Source: Pseudomonadota bacterium (lineage in GTDB: Bacteria; Pseudomonadota; Gammaproteobacteria; Xanthomonadales; SZUA-38). From it: a stretch of 64,000 nt of DNA. The first letter of the stretch is position 1. Each line of letters begins with the position of its first letter. Below the pieces are notes generated by a model. It was not told where the DNA came from. It worked only from the letters and a program-made list of their open reading frames with translations, and did not search any database. The position numbers were made by a program, and so were the translations under genes. The DNA lies in the NCBI GenBank assembly GCA_039033415.1, contig JBCCCR010000011.1, forward strand, positions 124,001 through 188,000, given 5' to 3'. Shown here piece by piece: positions 30,288 to 37,071 of this stretch.

Positions 30288-30508
30288 ACAAGCTTGTGCT
30301 GGGCGTTTTGATCGTGACCCTTGGCGGGTGCCAGGTCTATCAGACTCGCGGTCCTGCTAATCCTACGCGGGTCAAAGACTTTACGCCGGTGTGCTACGAG
30401 GGCAGGACCTTGCGACTCGAACGCGACGAACAGGTTCGCAAGCACCTGGCCAACGGGGCCACGCTGGGCCAGTGCCCGCGTCCCGAAGACGATTCGAGCG
30501 ACGGCTAG
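30284..30508 (+). CDS. Small lipoprotein
   Basis: The 74-residue protein has a hydrophobic signal and the lipobox TLGGC (Cys16), so it is a likely lipoprotein with a mature part of 59 residues. The mature part has two more Cys and is highly charged. Its ATG overlaps the stop of the DUF885 gene (ATGA), which supports that it is translated. No family is recognised. Confidence 0.75.
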   Translation: MNKLVLGVLIVTLGGCQVYQTRGPANPTRVKDFTPVCYEGRTLRLERDEQVRKHLANGATLGQCPRPEDDSSDG

Positions 30509-30527
30509 TCGCAGCAGTCGTCCGCTG

Positions 30528-33287
30528 ATGGACGTCGCCCGTGATTTGCCGCAGGAGCTTGGCGACCTGGCGGCGGCTGATTCCGCGTTTGCTGAGCGTC
30601 TAAATCCGCTTCTCGCCTACAGCAGTTACGCCCTGAGGGTTCTCGAAACGGAGGGCGCCTGGGTCCGGTCTCAGTGGTTAGGCGATGGGCTCGAGCAGCC
30701 GCTCGACATTCGGGCACTCCAGGTCCAGCTGAGCCTGCATGCGCCGGCAGCCGAGTTGGTAGAGCTTCCGGACACGGACTTTATGCATTCACTGCGCCGG
30801 CTCCGCCATCGCGCCCTGTTTTCGATTCTCTGGCGGGATTTCTCGGGGGAGGACCCGGTTGCGCACACCCTGGCGGGCCTGTCGGAAACGGCCCGCGTCC
30901 TGATTGGCCTGGCGGTTGATCGGGCCGCGGGTGAACTCGCGAAAAAGCACGGAACACCGCGAAACCAGGAAGGCGCAGCGCAGGACCTGGTGGTGCTTGC
31001 CCTGGGGAAGTTGGGTGGCGGCGAACTCAACTTTTCGTCGGACGTCGATCTCATGTTTGCGTTCGGCGAAGCTGGCGAAAGCGACGGCCGACGAGCCTTG
31101 AGCAACGAAGACTTTTTTGCCCGGGTGGTTCGGCGGACGCTGAAGCTGCTCGAAGCGGTGACGGAGCTCGGCTTCGTATACCGCGTGGACCTCCGACTGC
31201 GTCCTTTCGGCGATGCGGGGCGCCTGGCGCTGAGCTTTGCCGCCACCGAGCAGTATTACCTTCGTGAAGGTCGTGACTGGGAGCGCTATGCGCTCCAGAA
31301 AGCTACCCCCATTGCCGGCAACCTGAGCCTAGGCCGGGAGCTACTTCGCTCCCTGAGCCCCTTTATCTATCGCCGCTATGTGGACTACGGCGTGTTCGAT
31401 TCCCTGCGGGATATCAAGACGCTGATCCGGGAAAGCGGTCGGGAGCAGCAGGCCAACCTGAAGCTCGGGCCCGGTGGCATTCGGGAGATCGAGTTTCTAA
31501 CGCAGGCGTTTCAGCTGGTGCGCGGGGGCCGGGAAGCGACGCTTCGCGAACCCAGTCTGATAGCTGCACTAAGGGCCGTAGGCCAGCTCGGGCTGCTGCC
31601 TGCGGCGGAAGTGGCGGAGCTACAGGACGCCTATTTCCTGCTGCGTCGGGTCGAAAATCGGCTGCAGCAGAAAGCTGATCAGCAGGTGCACAGTTTGCCC
31701 GACGCGCCGGATGCGCTGCGGTCGCTGGCCGCCAGCTGCGGGTTTTCGGGCGAGCGGGAGCTGGGAGAGCAGCTACAAACCGTTCGTGACCGGGTCCACC
31801 AGATCTTCAGCCGGACGTTCGCGCCGGCTCAATCAGCGGCGGCGGATCAGTGGGAATGGCAGGCTTGGCAGTTCCGCCATAGCGAAACGAAGGCGATCCA
31901 AGCGCTCGCCGAGCTTGGCTATCCGGAACCGGAGGCCGCCAGCGACGTGCTGCAGCGCTTCCAGCATCACTCGGCCGTGCACGCCGCCGGCGTCCGGGGC
32001 CGCGCACTGGTGGACCAGCTGCTGCCCCTGCTGCTCAAGCAGGTGGCGGAAGTGGGAGGGCGGCCGCAGCTCCTCGACAGCGTCCTGAAGATCATCGCTG
32101 GCATCTGCCGCCGAACCGCCTACCTGGCGCTGCTGGTGGAGCAGCCGCAGGTCCGTGAACGACTCATCTGGGTTTGCGGCCATAGTCGCTGGCTCACGGA
32201 ACGCTTAAGTGAGCACGCGGCGCTATTGGACGATCTCATCGCGCCAGCCCCAATCGAGGACTCGGCGGACCTCGACCGTCAGCTGCAGCTGGTATTGCGG
32301 TCTGCCGAAGGTGATCCCGAACAGGAGCTGCTGGCGCTTTGCCAGTTTCAGCAGCGCGAAATGGTCACGCTGGCGATGGCGTTTCTGAGCGGCAGCCTGG
32401 ACGCGCTGACGGCTGGGCGGCTTCTCACTCAGCTGGCGGAAGGCCTTTTGGGCCGAGTGCTTCAGCTTACGGTGTCCGAGCTTGCCGGTCGCTTCGGAAG
32501 CCCCGGTCCTATTCCGTTTGGTGTGATTGGCTACGGCACGCTCGGTACCCGGGAGATGCGCTTCGATTCGGACCTGGATCTCGTATTCCTGACCGGATCA
32601 CTCGACGAGAGCGCGGAGACCGATGGACCCAAGCCGCTTCCTGTGCGGCAGTACTACACGAGGTTGGTCCGCAGGCTGATCAGTCTGCTAACCCTCCGAA
32701 CGCCGTTTGGCAGACTCTATGAAGTGGACACGCGATTGCGGCCCAACGGAGGAGCAGGCTTTCTAGTTTCAACGCTTGCGGCCTATGAGACCTATCAAAA
32801 CAAGAGCGCCTGGGTTTGGGAATGGCAGGCCCTGGTCCGGGCGCGCCCGGTATCTGGCAGTCGCGAAGTAGGTCGAGAATTCTCCCGTATCCGGCACGCG
32901 GCGCTGGCGCGTCCGCGCGAAGTCAATCCGTTGCGGCTGGATATCCTGAACATGCGGGAAAAGATGCAGCAGGAGGCTGCAACAGCGGGCGAACGCTTCA
33001 AGTTCCGCCCCGGCGCCCGGCTGGACATCGAGTTTTTGAGCCAATATTTATGTTTGGCGTATGCTGAGGCCCATCCGGCCCTGCTGAACGTTGTGGGGAC
33101 GCCCGAGCTGCTACGGGTCATGGCGTCGGCGGGTCTGCTGTCGGACAGGCAGGCCGACACGCTGGTGGCCGGCTATCGGTCGTCGGCTGATTCTGAGCTT
33201 CGCCTATCGCTGGGCGCAAAGCTGGAGCCAGACGCGTCAGTTCATGAAGCGGCCGTGCGAGAGCTATGGCGGGAGATGATGGAATAG
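30528..33287 (+). CDS. glnE: Glutamine synthetase adenylyltransferase/adenylyl-removing enzyme
   Basis: GlnE adds and removes AMP on glutamine synthetase in response to PII, tuning nitrogen assimilation. From ATG 30528 the protein has 919 residues, near the E. coli length. Both nucleotidyltransferase domains are visible: ELNFSSDVDLMFAF (about residue 168) for AMP removal and EMRFDSDLDLVFL (about 678) for addition. The frame is open to 30321, but that part lies over the small lipoprotein gene and reads as shadow. No clear ribosome site precedes the ATG. Confidence 0.96.
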   Translation: MDVARDLPQELGDLAAADSAFAERLNPLLAYSSYALRVLETEGAWVRSQWLGDGLEQPLDIRALQVQLSLHAPAAELVELPDTDFMHSLRRLRHRALFSILWRDFSGEDPVAHTLAGLSETARVLIGLAVDRAAGELAKKHGTPRNQEGAAQDLVVLALGKLGGGELNFSSDVDLMFAFGEAGESDGRRALSNEDFFARVVRRTLKLLEAVTELGFVYRVDLRLRPFGDAGRLALSFAATEQYYLREGRDWERYALQKATPIAGNLSLGRELLRSLSPFIYRRYVDYGVFDSLRDIKTLIRESGREQQANLKLGPGGIREIEFLTQAFQLVRGGREATLREPSLIAALRAVGQLGLLPAAEVAELQDAYFLLRRVENRLQQKADQQVHSLPDAPDALRSLAASCGFSGERELGEQLQTVRDRVHQIFSRTFAPAQSAAADQWEWQAWQFRHSETKAIQALAELGYPEPEAASDVLQRFQHHSAVHAAGVRGRALVDQLLPLLLKQVAEVGGRPQLLDSVLKIIAGICRRTAYLALLVEQPQVRERLIWVCGHSRWLTERLSEHAALLDDLIAPAPIEDSADLDRQLQLVLRSAEGDPEQELLALCQFQQREMVTLAMAFLSGSLDALTAGRLLTQLAEGLLGRVLQLTVSELAGRFGSPGPIPFGVIGYGTLGTREMRFDSDLDLVFLTGSLDESAETDGPKPLPVRQYYTRLVRRLISLLTLRTPFGRLYEVDTRLRPNGGAGFLVSTLAAYETYQNKSAWVWEWQALVRARPVSGSREVGREFSRIRHAALARPREVNPLRLDILNMREKMQQEAATAGERFKFRPGARLDIEFLSQYLCLAYAEAHPALLNVVGTPELLRVMASAGLLSDRQADTLVAGYRSSADSELRLSLGAKLEPDASVHEAAVRELWREMME

Positions 33288-33360: not shown

Positions 33361-33388
33361 AAAAAGAAGGGGAGCCGAGGCTCCCCTT
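33361..33388 (-). terminator. Minus-strand intrinsic terminator
   Basis: On the minus strand a perfect 10-base stem (AAGGGGAGCC and its complement, loop TC) is followed by CTTTTT. On the plus strand the hairpin has no T-run, so it ends transcription arriving from the right, where no protein gene exists. It could also stall glnE readthrough only weakly. Confidence 0.75.
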
Positions 33389-33830
33389 CCGAGAAGTTGT
33401 GCTAGTTCCTGCTCGTCCACGCCCTGCAGTGCGCTTCCCGTCGAGCTTTTCCTAACTTTGCGGGGCTTCGCTCCCAGCTATTGATAAATGGCTGCTCGCG
33501 TCTTCCTCGCTTCGGACCGCTTCGCGTCCGCCTTTCTTTTTCGACGTCGCCGGCGCTTTCGCGTCGCCTGGCGTCTATCTCAGAGGAGAGCTACTCCTCC
33601 TCGCACCTGCCGCGGTGGTTGTCGGTCGGTCGCCTTCCCGGTTTCCCGCTGGGCGCCGCCTTGCGGCAGAACGTCTCCTTACCACCTGAGACGCCTCGCT
33701 TTGGCTGGTTTCCTGACCCTGAATTCCTGGTGGGGCTTTCAGCGCCGGGCCTGACCGTTGCGTTGGAATTAAAGCTACTCCTGTGCCCCCGATTCGGTCA
33801 ACGCTCACGGCGGCTCCGTCAAAATATCAG
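33361..33830 (-). ncRNA. Candidate structured noncoding RNA of about 450-470 nt (or hairpin/REP-like cluster)
   Basis: No frame here gives a credible protein on either strand. Read on the minus strand the sequence is purine-rich and holds a series of short stems with GAA, GAAA or AAG loops: 33655-33667 (GCCGC-AAG-GCGGC), 33583-33599 (six-base arms), 33513-33530 (CGGAC...GTCCG around GCGAAGC), 33462-33475 (GGGAGCGAAGCCCC), plus GGCGACGCGAAAGCGCC near 33551-33567. It ends in the terminator at 33361-33388. Compared from memory it does not look like RNase P RNA, tmRNA, 6S RNA or a group II intron domain V. The 5' end is not defined. An alternative is a cluster of REP-like elements tied to the adjacent RAYT gene. 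Confidence 0.4.
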
Positions 33831-34205
33831 AGAAAATGTCGATATTCTGGATTTAGGGGTCGGGTTTGTGGTTTGTGCATATTCTGATGAATCTTACGTA
33901 TTAGCAGGCCTTCATCACAAGAGTTTCACGCATATGGGGCCAGGTTTGTTGTTATTGTTCAAAAAAGGTACAAACGAAATTGTTGTTGAAGCTGCTTGTC
34001 GGTGACGCTCAAATAATATGATTAGATTCAGTGATCTATAAGAATAATTCGGGATTTTTCTTTTTGTCATTCATGCAGCAGTATTTTGCGAAAAGCACCA
34101 TAGTGACGCTGCTTTCCTCAGGTTCGTGATCTAAGTGATGGAAAAATCGATAAATCTGCGTTTGTTCGGTCCTCGCCAAAAATTGGTGTAGGCTCGAACC
34201 GGCGC
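33830..34205. other. AT-rich noncoding island upstream of the RAYT gene
   Basis: GC content falls sharply: hand counts of three 60-base blocks (33841-33900, 33961-34020, 34021-34080) give 64 of 180 bases, about 36 percent, against about 60 percent or more in flanking genes. An open plus-strand frame ends at 34005 but has no credible start or family. The inverted repeat AATATC/GATATT flanks 33823-33846. The contrast suggests acquired DNA or a remnant. Confidence 0.6.
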
Positions 34206-34217
34206 TGGAGGAAAGAT

Positions 34218-35165
34218 TTGGCTAGATCGAACCGAGTAGAAACCGCGGGTGGTTGGTACCACGTCTCCAATCGCGGTGCGGGAAGGCAGCGAATTTTTCG
34301 CAACGATGAGCACCGGGTGAGCTTTCTGGAGCTGCTCGGCAGCCTGCGGGAGCAGCACCGGGTGGAAGTTCACGCGTACTGCATGATGACCAACCGGTAC
34401 GATCTGATTCTCAGAACCCTTCGCGCCAACCTTTCGATGGCGATGCGCCACCTCGGCGGGGTTTACACGCAGCGCTATAACCGTATGACCGGACGCGATG
34501 GTCCGCTGTTTCGCGGGCGATATCGCGCGGTGCTCTTTGAGCCGGAGACGACACTCCTGGCGGTTTCCCGGCACCTTCATCGGCGGCCGTTGGTCACCGG
34601 CACCGTCCAGCGACTGGATCGATACCGCTGGTCCAGCTATCCGAGCTACGTCACTACACGACGACAGCCACTATGGCTCCAGCGGTCCGCCATCCTCGAA
34701 ATGACGGATGGGAACGCCCGCAGCTACCGGCAGTACGTTGAACGCGAAGGAGAGAGCAACGAGCTGGTCCGACGCTTTTATCGCCAAAGTCGACCGGGGT
34801 CGATACTCGGCAGCGACGCCTTCAAGCGCCAGATGGTCCAGGCGGGGGAGCCGGCAGGCGGCGGAACGTCGGAGGTCGTCGATGCCCCGATACCTCCCCG
34901 CAGAATTATCCGGCTGACGGCGGACTACTTTGACGTCACGCGTCGCAGTCTGCTCACCTCAACCCGCGGTCGACTGAACCGCCCCCGAATGGCGGCACTG
35001 TGGCTTTGCCGGCGCCACAGCCGCCAAACGCTGGAGCAGCTCGCCGAGCTCTTCCGGGTAAGCAGCTTCGGCACCGTGTCAGCCGCGCTGCATCGGGCCA
35101 AAGCCGCGATGGGTGATGAGTTCTGGCGAGACGTCCGCGCCATTGAGCGACAGCTCCAGTCGTAG
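34218..35165 (+). CDS. REP-associated tyrosine transposase (RAYT) relative, HUH motif lost, DnaA-like C-terminus
   Basis: The 315-residue protein starts at TTG after a strong GGAGGAAAG site. The Y1_Tnp fold is clear: GGWYHVSNRGAGRQRIFRND, then ANLSMAMRHLGGVYTQRYNR and GPLFRGRYRAVLFE. The metal-binding HUH motif, normally NHYHLL, reads NRYDLI, so R60 and D62 replace both histidines. A Tyr-containing segment (SYRQYVERE) remains. The C-terminal 90 residues form a DnaA-type helix-turn-helix (DYFDVTRRSLL to SSFGTVSAALHRAKAAM). Intact RAYTs cut and move REP sequences; this one is probably not a nuclease. The unbroken frame argues for a retained DNA-binding role, but recent decay is possible. Confidence 0.9.
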   Translation: MARSNRVETAGGWYHVSNRGAGRQRIFRNDEHRVSFLELLGSLREQHRVEVHAYCMMTNRYDLILRTLRANLSMAMRHLGGVYTQRYNRMTGRDGPLFRGRYRAVLFEPETTLLAVSRHLHRRPLVTGTVQRLDRYRWSSYPSYVTTRRQPLWLQRSAILEMTDGNARSYRQYVEREGESNELVRRFYRQSRPGSILGSDAFKRQMVQAGEPAGGGTSEVVDAPIPPRRIIRLTADYFDVTRRSLLTSTRGRLNRPRMAALWLCRRHSRQTLEQLAELFRVSSFGTVSAALHRAKAAMGDEFWRDVRAIERQLQS

Positions 35166-35193: not shown

Positions 35194-37071
35194 CTACGCT
35201 CTCCTACCTGGTGCTGGCACCGTGTGTCCCCGCCGCAGCTCGCGCAGCAGAAAGCGGCTGGTCGATACCGCCAGCGCCAGGTCCCGCGGCAGGGGCCAGG
35301 GGTCACCCACCAGCATGCTGGCAAGCCATTCTCCCAGCAGCGGCCCGGTGGTAAAGCCACGGGCGCCGAGGCCAGCCACGACATACAGACCGGGTAGCCA
35401 CGGCGCAGCGTCGCCGACGCGCCCTCCTCGCACCCAGCGCAGCTTTTCTGCCGCGGTCGTCATATCCAGCACCGGGCCCGCCGCCGGAAGCCGATCCGGC
35501 GTCGCAAGTCGCCAGCCGGACCATTCACCGGACGCCTCTGTCGACAAACTGAGGCTCGGAAAGGCGCTGAGCACCGGGGGCGTCAGCGGCGCTGGCGGTG
35601 TCGCGTCGTCCCGCTCAAAGCTGGCGCCGGCCCAGTGGCGCCCGCCGCTGGGTGGATGCAAATATTTGGCGGCGAAGATGGCGCAGCGGAGCGACCGGGA
35701 GGCTCCCGTTGCCGGAAGGCTGATCGCCCGGCCTCGCCATCGCTCCACGGGGAGACCGGTAGCGGGGCCAAGCGCATCAGCGCCGGTCGCCAAGACCACC
35801 GTTGGGTGATCGGTCATGCCGCTGCTGGTCGCCACCCGCCAACCGGTTTCATGACGGTCCACCGCATGGACATGCCGCTGAGCGACCGCGCCCCGCGCAT
35901 AGTCCCGCACGATACCTGCCTCGGGAAACCACAAACCTCCCGGCGCGTCGAGGCTTAAGAGGCCGCTTGCGGCGCGGACACCCTGGGTGTCCAGCAGAGT
36001 GAGGTGACCGTCACCCGCGCGCCACAGGTCGACGACACGCTGAAAGCGGGTGAGGTCATGGCCGGAACCAGCCAGGAGCAGGGCCCCACAGGGGTGAAAC
36101 TCAGCGCGTTGCCCCCAGTAGGAAAGGGCATAGCGGTAGGCGTGCCAGAAAAACCGCCCGGCGGGACCGCTGCCGGCCTCCAGCCTCGGCATCACCGAGA
36201 CCGACGGGTTGCTGGACGCCGCCGGCCCTGCGTCGAGGATTTCGACCGAGCGCTGTCGGCGCCGCAGCGCGGAGGCCAGGCACTGTCCCCCCACGCCGCC
36301 GCCAACGATGGTTACCGGACCGTCCGGCACCGGGAGCGGCGGCGCAAACCAGCCCGGGCACGCTGATGCGGGCTGACCGACGTATACCCCCATCAGCCGT
36401 TCACGTTTGCTGCCGAAGCCCGGCGCGCGGTTGAGTGAAAAGCCCACCCGGGCCAGGTCTTCGCGGACCTGCGTAGCCGTGGTGAAGGTGGCCAGCCGGC
36501 CGTCCGTCGCGGTTAAACGCGCGACTTGGGTCAGCACTTCCGAGCGCCACATCTGAGGGTTGCGCGAGGGAGAGAAGCCGTCAAGAAACCAGGAGTCCAC
36601 GACCGCTTCGAGCTGCGTCAGCTGCTCCAGCACCTCACCGAGCATCAGCGTCAGCGTCACGTTGTCGGGTAGGTGCACGCGGTGGTAGCCCGGCGTCAAA
36701 GCCGGGTAGTGGCGCAGCAGCTCGGCGCTGTACACCTGAAGCGCGGGCCAGCGCTGATGAATGTCCCTGAGCTGTTCCGCCGTGGCGGGATGGGCCTCGA
36801 CCGCAAGATAGTGCAAATGCTGGTGAGGCCGGCGATGCCGCCGCCACAGGCGCCAGGTCTCCAGAAAGGTGAGTCCGGTGCCGAAACCGGTCTCACCCAC
36901 CGTATGGCGCCGCTGCCCCCGCCAGCGCTCCGGCAACGAGCAGCCGGTAAGGAACACCAGCCGCTTTTCGTCCGGCGCCCCTCGTCGTTGAAAGTAGATG
37001 TCGCCGTAGCGGTCTGAGCGCACGGCGCCGTCAGCGTCTGGCGCGAGCTTCGGGTCGGTTAGCTCAAACAT
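35194..37071 (-). CDS. mnmC: Bifunctional tRNA wobble-uridine enzyme MnmC
   Basis: MnmC completes mnm5s2U34 in tRNA: the C-terminal FAD domain removes carboxymethyl groups and the N-terminal domain methylates. The 625-residue protein has the methyltransferase motifs VGETGFGTGLTFL and WFLDGFSPSRNPQMW in the first 240 residues. The FAD-binding motif VTIVGGGVGGQCLASALRRR is near residue 254, and GARGFTTGPLLGEWLA lies near the end. It converges on the RAYT gene with 28 bases between. Confidence 0.95.
   Translation of the reverse strand: MFELTDPKLAPDADGAVRSDRYGDIYFQRRGAPDEKRLVFLTGCSLPERWRGQRRHTVGETGFGTGLTFLETWRLWRRHRRPHQHLHYLAVEAHPATAEQLRDIHQRWPALQVYSAELLRHYPALTPGYHRVHLPDNVTLTLMLGEVLEQLTQLEAVVDSWFLDGFSPSRNPQMWRSEVLTQVARLTATDGRLATFTTATQVREDLARVGFSLNRAPGFGSKRERLMGVYVGQPASACPGWFAPPLPVPDGPVTIVGGGVGGQCLASALRRRQRSVEILDAGPAASSNPSVSVMPRLEAGSGPAGRFFWHAYRYALSYWGQRAEFHPCGALLLAGSGHDLTRFQRVVDLWRAGDGHLTLLDTQGVRAASGLLSLDAPGGLWFPEAGIVRDYARGAVAQRHVHAVDRHETGWRVATSSGMTDHPTVVLATGADALGPATGLPVERWRGRAISLPATGASRSLRCAIFAAKYLHPPSGGRHWAGASFERDDATPPAPLTPPVLSAFPSLSLSTEASGEWSGWRLATPDRLPAAGPVLDMTTAAEKLRWVRGGRVGDAAPWLPGLYVVAGLGARGFTTGPLLGEWLASMLVGDPWPLPRDLALAVSTSRFLLRELRRGHTVPAPGRRA

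Follow-up and report, generated by a model that had tools for sequence, protein, structure and literature searches.

Large, highly structured bacterial RNAs with an unassigned function are few. The nearest described kind that we found for the RNA reported here is the smtA motif, a structured RNA of more than 350 nt from Thioalkalivibrio ('Soda Lake RNA', HRC-65-1), as characterized in the description given in PMC11109978. It is like our RNA in being large, complex, supported by covariation, limited to a lineage, and carried by a Gram-negative host, but according to that description it occurs in Thioalkalivibrio only, upstream of smtA, and it is by description that we set it apart. OLE RNA is likewise large, intricately folded, and an orphan, and it dimerizes with a kissing loop; it differs in its length of about 600 nt, its Gram-positive hosts, and its profile in Rfam (as outlined in PMC12286853), whereas our RNA matches no Rfam family. 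The raiA motif/ModT is a stand-alone structured RNA with tertiary structure and is found in many species (as summarized in PMC11706538 and PMC12286853), but it measures 205 nt in the form used in PMC12286853 and belongs to other phyla; it is also set apart by description. Some orphan large RNAs (OLE, ROOL, and GOLLD) proved to form unexpected RNA particles, and the same account presents them as homo-oligomers with kissing loops (PMC12286853). Our RNA belongs loosely among these orphan large RNAs, and no description of it was found among the literature matches listed.

The minus strand from position 33767 to 33361 of the window (the whole 64,000-nt stretch of DNA analyzed here) is very probably a gene for an intricately folded RNA of about 400 bases (Table 1). 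The product of the minus-strand gene beyond the neighboring RAYT-like gene is one that we take to be MnmC-like. A preliminary description of this DNA, made from its letters alone, had proposed an unknown structured RNA ending in a terminator, and conservation and covariation among relatives, together with the lack of an Rfam match, bear this out. The minus strand had been called purine-rich, and its purine share over the RNA is indeed 60.4%, which is reached by 0.07% of the 407-nt stretches of the whole window (both strands). Stems capped by loops of GAAA, GAAG, and GCAA can be drawn on the minus strand, in agreement with the short GAA-, GAAA-, or AAG-loop stems listed earlier. The view that no protein gene fits there also held: none of the three ORFs scanned across the RNA (174 and 88 aa on the plus strand, 77 aa on the minus strand) matched Pfam at an E value of 0.1, and the 174-aa frame shrinks to 96 aa in the nearest relative. 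The extent up to 33830 had to be shortened, as the RNA begins near 33767 and positions 33772-33801 are the promoter. Single-sequence folding energies (z of -1.89 on the minus strand and -2.28 on the plus strand) are weak evidence and were therefore not used as proof, which was taken from relatives instead. Compared with the congeneric genome G001, the RNA shows 98.0% identity over an ungapped 407 nt, versus 75.5% for the last 900 nt of glnE, 80.2% for the RAYT gene, and 54.5% and 73.6% for the two spacers; the DNA match to G001 stops at the T-run of the RNA. Among 30 extracted sequences, the RNA ranges from 362 to 616 nt, and the length variation is located in the 5' domain and within helix Pe.

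Table 1 Features of the RNA gene and its flanks in window coordinates
Feature	Position	Strand	Remarks
glnE (flanking)	30321-33287	plus	GlnE domains
RNA gene	33361..33767	minus	about 407 nt; ends predicted from the promoter (5') and the T-run (3')
Intrinsic terminator, hairpin and T-run	33361..33389	minus	7 of 11 pairs changed on both sides (21 sequences)
PK2 3' strand, ACUUCU	33392..33397	minus	directly before the terminator
Hairpin Ph	33411..33446	minus	palindromic CUGCAG loop
Hairpin Pf (CGGAC/GUCCG)	33513..33530	minus	loop is the PK2 5' strand
Helix Pe, GACG/CGUC	33543..33575	minus	four main pairs invariant, support is conservation only; long insertions in some species
Signature sequence GAGAUAGACG	33572..33581	minus	invariant
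Hairpin Pd	33582..33600	minus	5 of 6 counted pairs changed on both sides; self-complementary loop tetramer, AGCU here
PK1 3' strand, ACCACC	33614..33619	minus	98% of cells paired, almost no variation
Hairpin Pa	33672..33693	minus	GUGGUA loop; 7 of 8 pairs changed on both sides
PK1 5' strand, GGUGGUA	33680..33686	minus	loop of Pa
5' domain	33694..33767	minus	length varies by species; helices partly worked out, excluded from pair counts
-10 box, TAGCTT	33772..33777	minus	18-nt spacer here, mostly 17 nt in relatives
-35 box, TTGACC	33796..33801	minus	TTGAC-type box in relatives
RAYT-like gene (flanking)	34218-35165	plus	
Gene beyond the RAYT-like gene	35194-37071	minus	Pfam Methyltransf_30 and DAO

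A covariance search against Rfam, put forward earlier as a check, matched no family: the models of Rfam 15 gave no match at the gathering threshold in the whole window, and when the window locus and 11 homologous loci were scanned permissively, all matches fell below the gathering scores. Such scores, like the restriction of the smtA motif to Thioalkalivibrio in its authors' description (PMC11109978), speak against our RNA being a far-diverged representative of some known class; the smtA motif, as an example of one, is similar in size and has a single complex fold and an unassigned role, and we nonetheless regard such membership as very unlikely. The preliminary description had set the RNA apart from RNase P RNA, tmRNA, and 6S RNA, and was right in this. 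Both 6S RNA (RF00013) and type A RNase P RNA (RF00010) offer a likeness as housekeeping RNA genes with one match per genome (13 of 13 carrier genomes), but both are located elsewhere in these genomes, with none in the window. No tmRNA or tRNA was found by ARAGORN in 12 homologous loci, and no tmRNA by Rfam in the window. Protein sponges of the CsrB/RsmZ type carry many GGA hairpin loops; the Pf loops of our RNA vary and are often devoid of GGA. The new RNA class is to be understood as one for which no homolog was detected in the searches made, and its mechanism is not claimed to be new.

The carriers fall into the family of the window (f1) and a second family (f7), both in Lysobacterales. A DNA search found the RNA region in a single copy in its own genome and in 3 of 100 other genomes, namely G001 (same genus), G003 (f1), and G081 (f7). 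An exact motif search added G195, and all four carriers are Lysobacterales MAGs. Covariance model R1 (the conserved core, built from five sequences) matches 32 of 39 f7 genomes and 21 of the 22 that are of high quality, while model R2 (with structure, built from 24 sequences) matches 36 of the 398 genomes searched in the order: 33 in f7, 3 in f1, and none in other families. Nearly every f7 genome of good quality thus carries a conserved, structured RNA bounded by a promoter and a terminator. Three of the four f1 genomes seen carry it; neither the f1 genome G002 (92% complete) nor the f7 genome G041 (96%) gave a match. There is mostly one copy per carrier genome, and G131 and G199 have two separate copies each by R2, three of these four lying at contig ends. 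The RNA is thus kept mostly single-copy in two families and therefore probably has an important job. Under strict scoring, R2 matched the genome of the window alone in overlapping samples of the class (369 genomes) and the phylum (349 genomes); it should be noted that the order, class, and phylum searches scored few candidates per genome and overlap in part, and that weak homologs may be missed. The RNA was not found in the E. coli genomes searched. L114 and L116, carriers found later, entered the synteny comparison only.

Several searches returned matches that were set aside by eye as chance. With E values of up to 1 accepted for R2, 9 of 36 genomes gave matches, all judged to be chance. An exact-motif scan of genome contigs gave 33 records, which were the 4 known carriers and 29 chance matches (judged in 40 nt of context). 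Each of two viral scans produced one chance match, the second within a long open frame. An order-wide exact pattern occurred in 7 of 299 genomes, with G169 and G281 judged to be chance, and its reversed control matched one genome.

From these sequences, we infer that the RNA gene has a sigma70-type promoter of its own, which drives its transcription, and a terminator of its own, which frees the transcript. Upstream of the RNA, a TTGAC-type box and, 15-19 nt further on, a -10-like hexamer are present at 30 of 32 homologous loci, versus 2 of 32 for the reverse strand of the same stretches and a mean of 2.5 (maximum 7) for shuffles; a promoter scan of the window sequence alone does not report TTGACC/TAGCTT. 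At the opposite end, the perfect hairpin followed by a T-run that had been noticed earlier is present. Its minus-strand stem GAAGGGGAGC/GCTCCCCTTC (33389-33366) encloses the loop CTCG and is followed by TTTTT to 33361, and the terminator scan, which accepts G-U, counts 11 pairs. The number of terminator-like sites (2, versus 1.3 expected) is no excess in itself. A strong hairpin with a T-run occurs in 30 of the 31 sequences examined, the remaining one being cut by a contig end.

Compensatory changes in relatives, whose absence would have counted against the RNA in the preliminary description, are plentiful. The 82-pair structure comprises 15 helices including long-range contacts; across 21 sequences reaching the 3' end, 87.7% of its cells are paired and 44 of its pairs are changed on both sides. 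Its covariation is 0.308 versus 0.167 when shuffled (0 of 500) and at most 0.110 when slid, figures that ignore shared descent. For the 42-pair core including PK1, which covers 24 sequences, 90.3% of pairs are formed and 22 are changed on both sides, and the covariation, again ignoring shared descent, is 0.286 versus 0.147 when shuffled (0 of 500) and at most 0.094 when slid. Alignments A3 and A4 leave out sequences with insertions (L061, L068, L070, L071, L072, L076, L077, L079, and L080), and A4 additionally L054, L058, and L066. The 30 extracted RNAs exclude L054 and L058, which lack a promoter match (a contig end truncates L054), and L066, the end of which is missing. Pb, Pg, and PK3 are a poor fit for the sequences from f1 and G081. 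In some f7 genera (L061, L068, L070, L071, and L076), helix Pe contains a long array of small hairpins; the cores with Pe insertions measure 360-428 nt versus about 170 nt otherwise, and we liken the insertion to an rRNA expansion segment. In a first RNAalifold model from four sequences, the 3' end was joined to the block AGGAGTAGCT; this pairing was rejected because AGGAGTAGCT overlaps the -10 region.

The best-tested long-range contact is PK2, for which cognate pairing supports an anchoring of the 3' end at hairpin Pf. In the window it is short, with GAAG/CUUC pairs only; examples from relatives are UGGAAGA/UCUUCCA (G034), GUAGUC/GACUAC (G096), and CGGUAAG/UUUACCG (G136). Ignoring descent, cognate loops and tails of 30 sequences pair at -6.57 kcal/mol versus -5.09 kcal/mol when permuted (0 of 5000), and the 27 distinct pairs at -6.47 versus -4.69 (0 of 10000). 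PK1 and PK3 are less certain candidates for further long-range contacts, with conserved complementarity and little covariation. The PK1 strands (the GUGGUA loop with UACCAY) are complementary nearly everywhere and hardly vary, which is complementarity without covariation. PK3 would join the Pb loop with the Pg loop; the two are complementary in most f7 sequences compared, and one pair changes from U-A to C-G in four sequences, but its permutation test was not significant (5283 of 10000, 19 sequences). An earlier, unfocused PK3 test (22 of 5000) was set aside and is not relied on because the tested segments included other helices.

The genes around the RNA differ between lineages. In f1, the RNA and glnE converge head-on at all three loci, so that the RNA leads into no gene there; it also points away from the RAYT gene. 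At 27 of 32 f7 loci, a frame with the Walker A motif of an ABC ATPase follows no more than about 1 kb from the RNA signature and runs the same way; for the two such frames tested, the best NCBIfam match was MlaF (320 and 308 bits against a cut-off of 441). The gene after the MlaF-like gene in G081 belongs to the MlaE family (Pfam MlaE). The flank is too short to judge at two further f7 loci. The three loci of genus g56 yielded no Walker A frame, and their longest downstream frame is on the opposite strand, although shorter same-direction frames of up to 139 aa exist. The upstream opposite-strand frame at these loci is presumably aspartokinase-like, and the downstream one we assume to be YchF-like in two of the three.

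These contexts bear on whether the RNA could be a cis-acting leader, riboswitch-like or an attenuator, of the downstream lipid-transport Mla-like genes, with the f1 copy a stray. The frequent same-direction Walker A frame, MlaF-like in the two cases tested, and the terminator at the end of the RNA are what such a leader would have. However, a leader lies upstream of the gene it regulates, and this fails at the three f1 loci, for which the reading is largely refuted, and apparently at the three g56 loci; moreover, conservation of the RNA reaches 98% in f1 though no Mla-like gene follows, and it has its own promoter and, in all but one truncated sequence, a terminator. A leader is thus highly improbable. 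As the f1 and g56 contexts differ from the rest, the RNA is not the leader of one particular gene, and as an MlaF-like gene follows in most of f7 whereas the RNA faces glnE in f1, it very likely acts in trans. The function is not readable from the neighboring genes.

Our preferred explanation is a stand-alone gene for a structured RNA with its own promoter and terminator, which we hold with considerable confidence to act in trans, probably as an RNA machine or RNP scaffold and possibly as a homodimer. The transcript would fold into about a dozen helices, with PK2 tying the 3' end to hairpin Pf and PK1 and PK3 adding two long-range contacts. Most likely, it would serve as a housekeeping-type machine or scaffold that is always needed by the cell, rather than as a switch for a neighboring gene. 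With more than 30 sequences, deep covariation, a conserved promoter and terminator, near-universal presence in good f7 genomes, and a very high degree of conservation, the function is directly testable by deletion and pull-down.

Two self-complementary loops might join such an RNA to a second copy of itself. CUGCAG occurs near the 3' end of 27 of the 30 sequences, and the Pd loop contains CGCG, UGCA, or AGCU in 27 of 30 (26 by script and one by hand; the exceptions are G003, G081, and G116). That three different tetramers in Pd are all self-complementary is suggestive of dimerization, and a homodimer held through CUGCAG and the CGCG, UGCA, or AGCU loops is speculative. A second CTGCAG is present in 3 of 30 RNAs; in the g56 genomes L072 and L079 it adjoins the PK1 3' strand, and the Ph loop could therefore pair intramolecularly there. 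A bolder proposal is a new class of large RNA machine that would be constitutive, pseudoknotted, homodimeric or larger through two palindromic loops, and catalytic or scaffolding. We offer it tentatively, as possible but on balance doubtful; if true, its role would be important enough for conservation far above that of the surrounding protein genes.

The neighboring RAYT had been described as nuclease-dead, and its HUH site is indeed lost: it reads NRYD in all three f1 carriers, versus NHVH or NHIH in nine other RAYT members compared (some with stop codons). The protein also has a DnaA-C-terminal-like HTH. A close ortholog is confined to the RNA locus in the three f1 carriers (100, 85, and 58% identity), and G002 has neither an RNA match nor a RAYT match. 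The conservation of this nuclease-dead-looking protein suggests a domesticated, non-nuclease role. In a search of 12 f7 genomes, 5 had no RAYT match and the other 7 had matches of at most 35% identity; no RAYT match was found around the f7 RNAs (30 loci, about 1.6-3.1 kb, two of these also over 19.5 and 14.4 kb). The RAYT is incidental to the RNA and unrelated to its wider distribution.

Two REP-like direct repeats, at 33856-33880 (GGGGTCGGGTTTGT...) and 33936-33960 (GGGGCCAGGTTTGT...), lie between the RNA and the RAYT gene and are also recognizable in G001. They are the only exact sites of their 14-base pattern in the genome, and with one mismatch the pattern has 10 sites, as many as in the reversed control. 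The main alternative in the preliminary description, a REP-type array of hairpins, or what remains of one, linked to the HUH-less RAYT, draws on these repeats and on the linkage of RNA and RAYT in the three f1 carriers, but its probability is next to nil, since REP/REPIN elements are dispersed, multi-copy short palindromes and only one copy of the RNA was found in its own genome, the 14-base pattern is at control level, and in f7, where the RNA is kept, no RAYT match turned up in the stretches searched around it or, for 5 of 12 genomes, at all. In L055 (G034), the stretch separating the RNA from the MlaF-like gene contains, at about 1740-1834, a long inverted repeat with GGGTCAGAGTAAA, which we take to be a RAYT-type repeat. 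In the window, the block AGGTTCGTGATCTAAGTGATGGAAAAATCG (34120-34149), which lies upstream of the RAYT gene, is part of a 51-nt stretch that is 90% identical in G001, and it is perhaps the promoter or operator of the RAYT gene.
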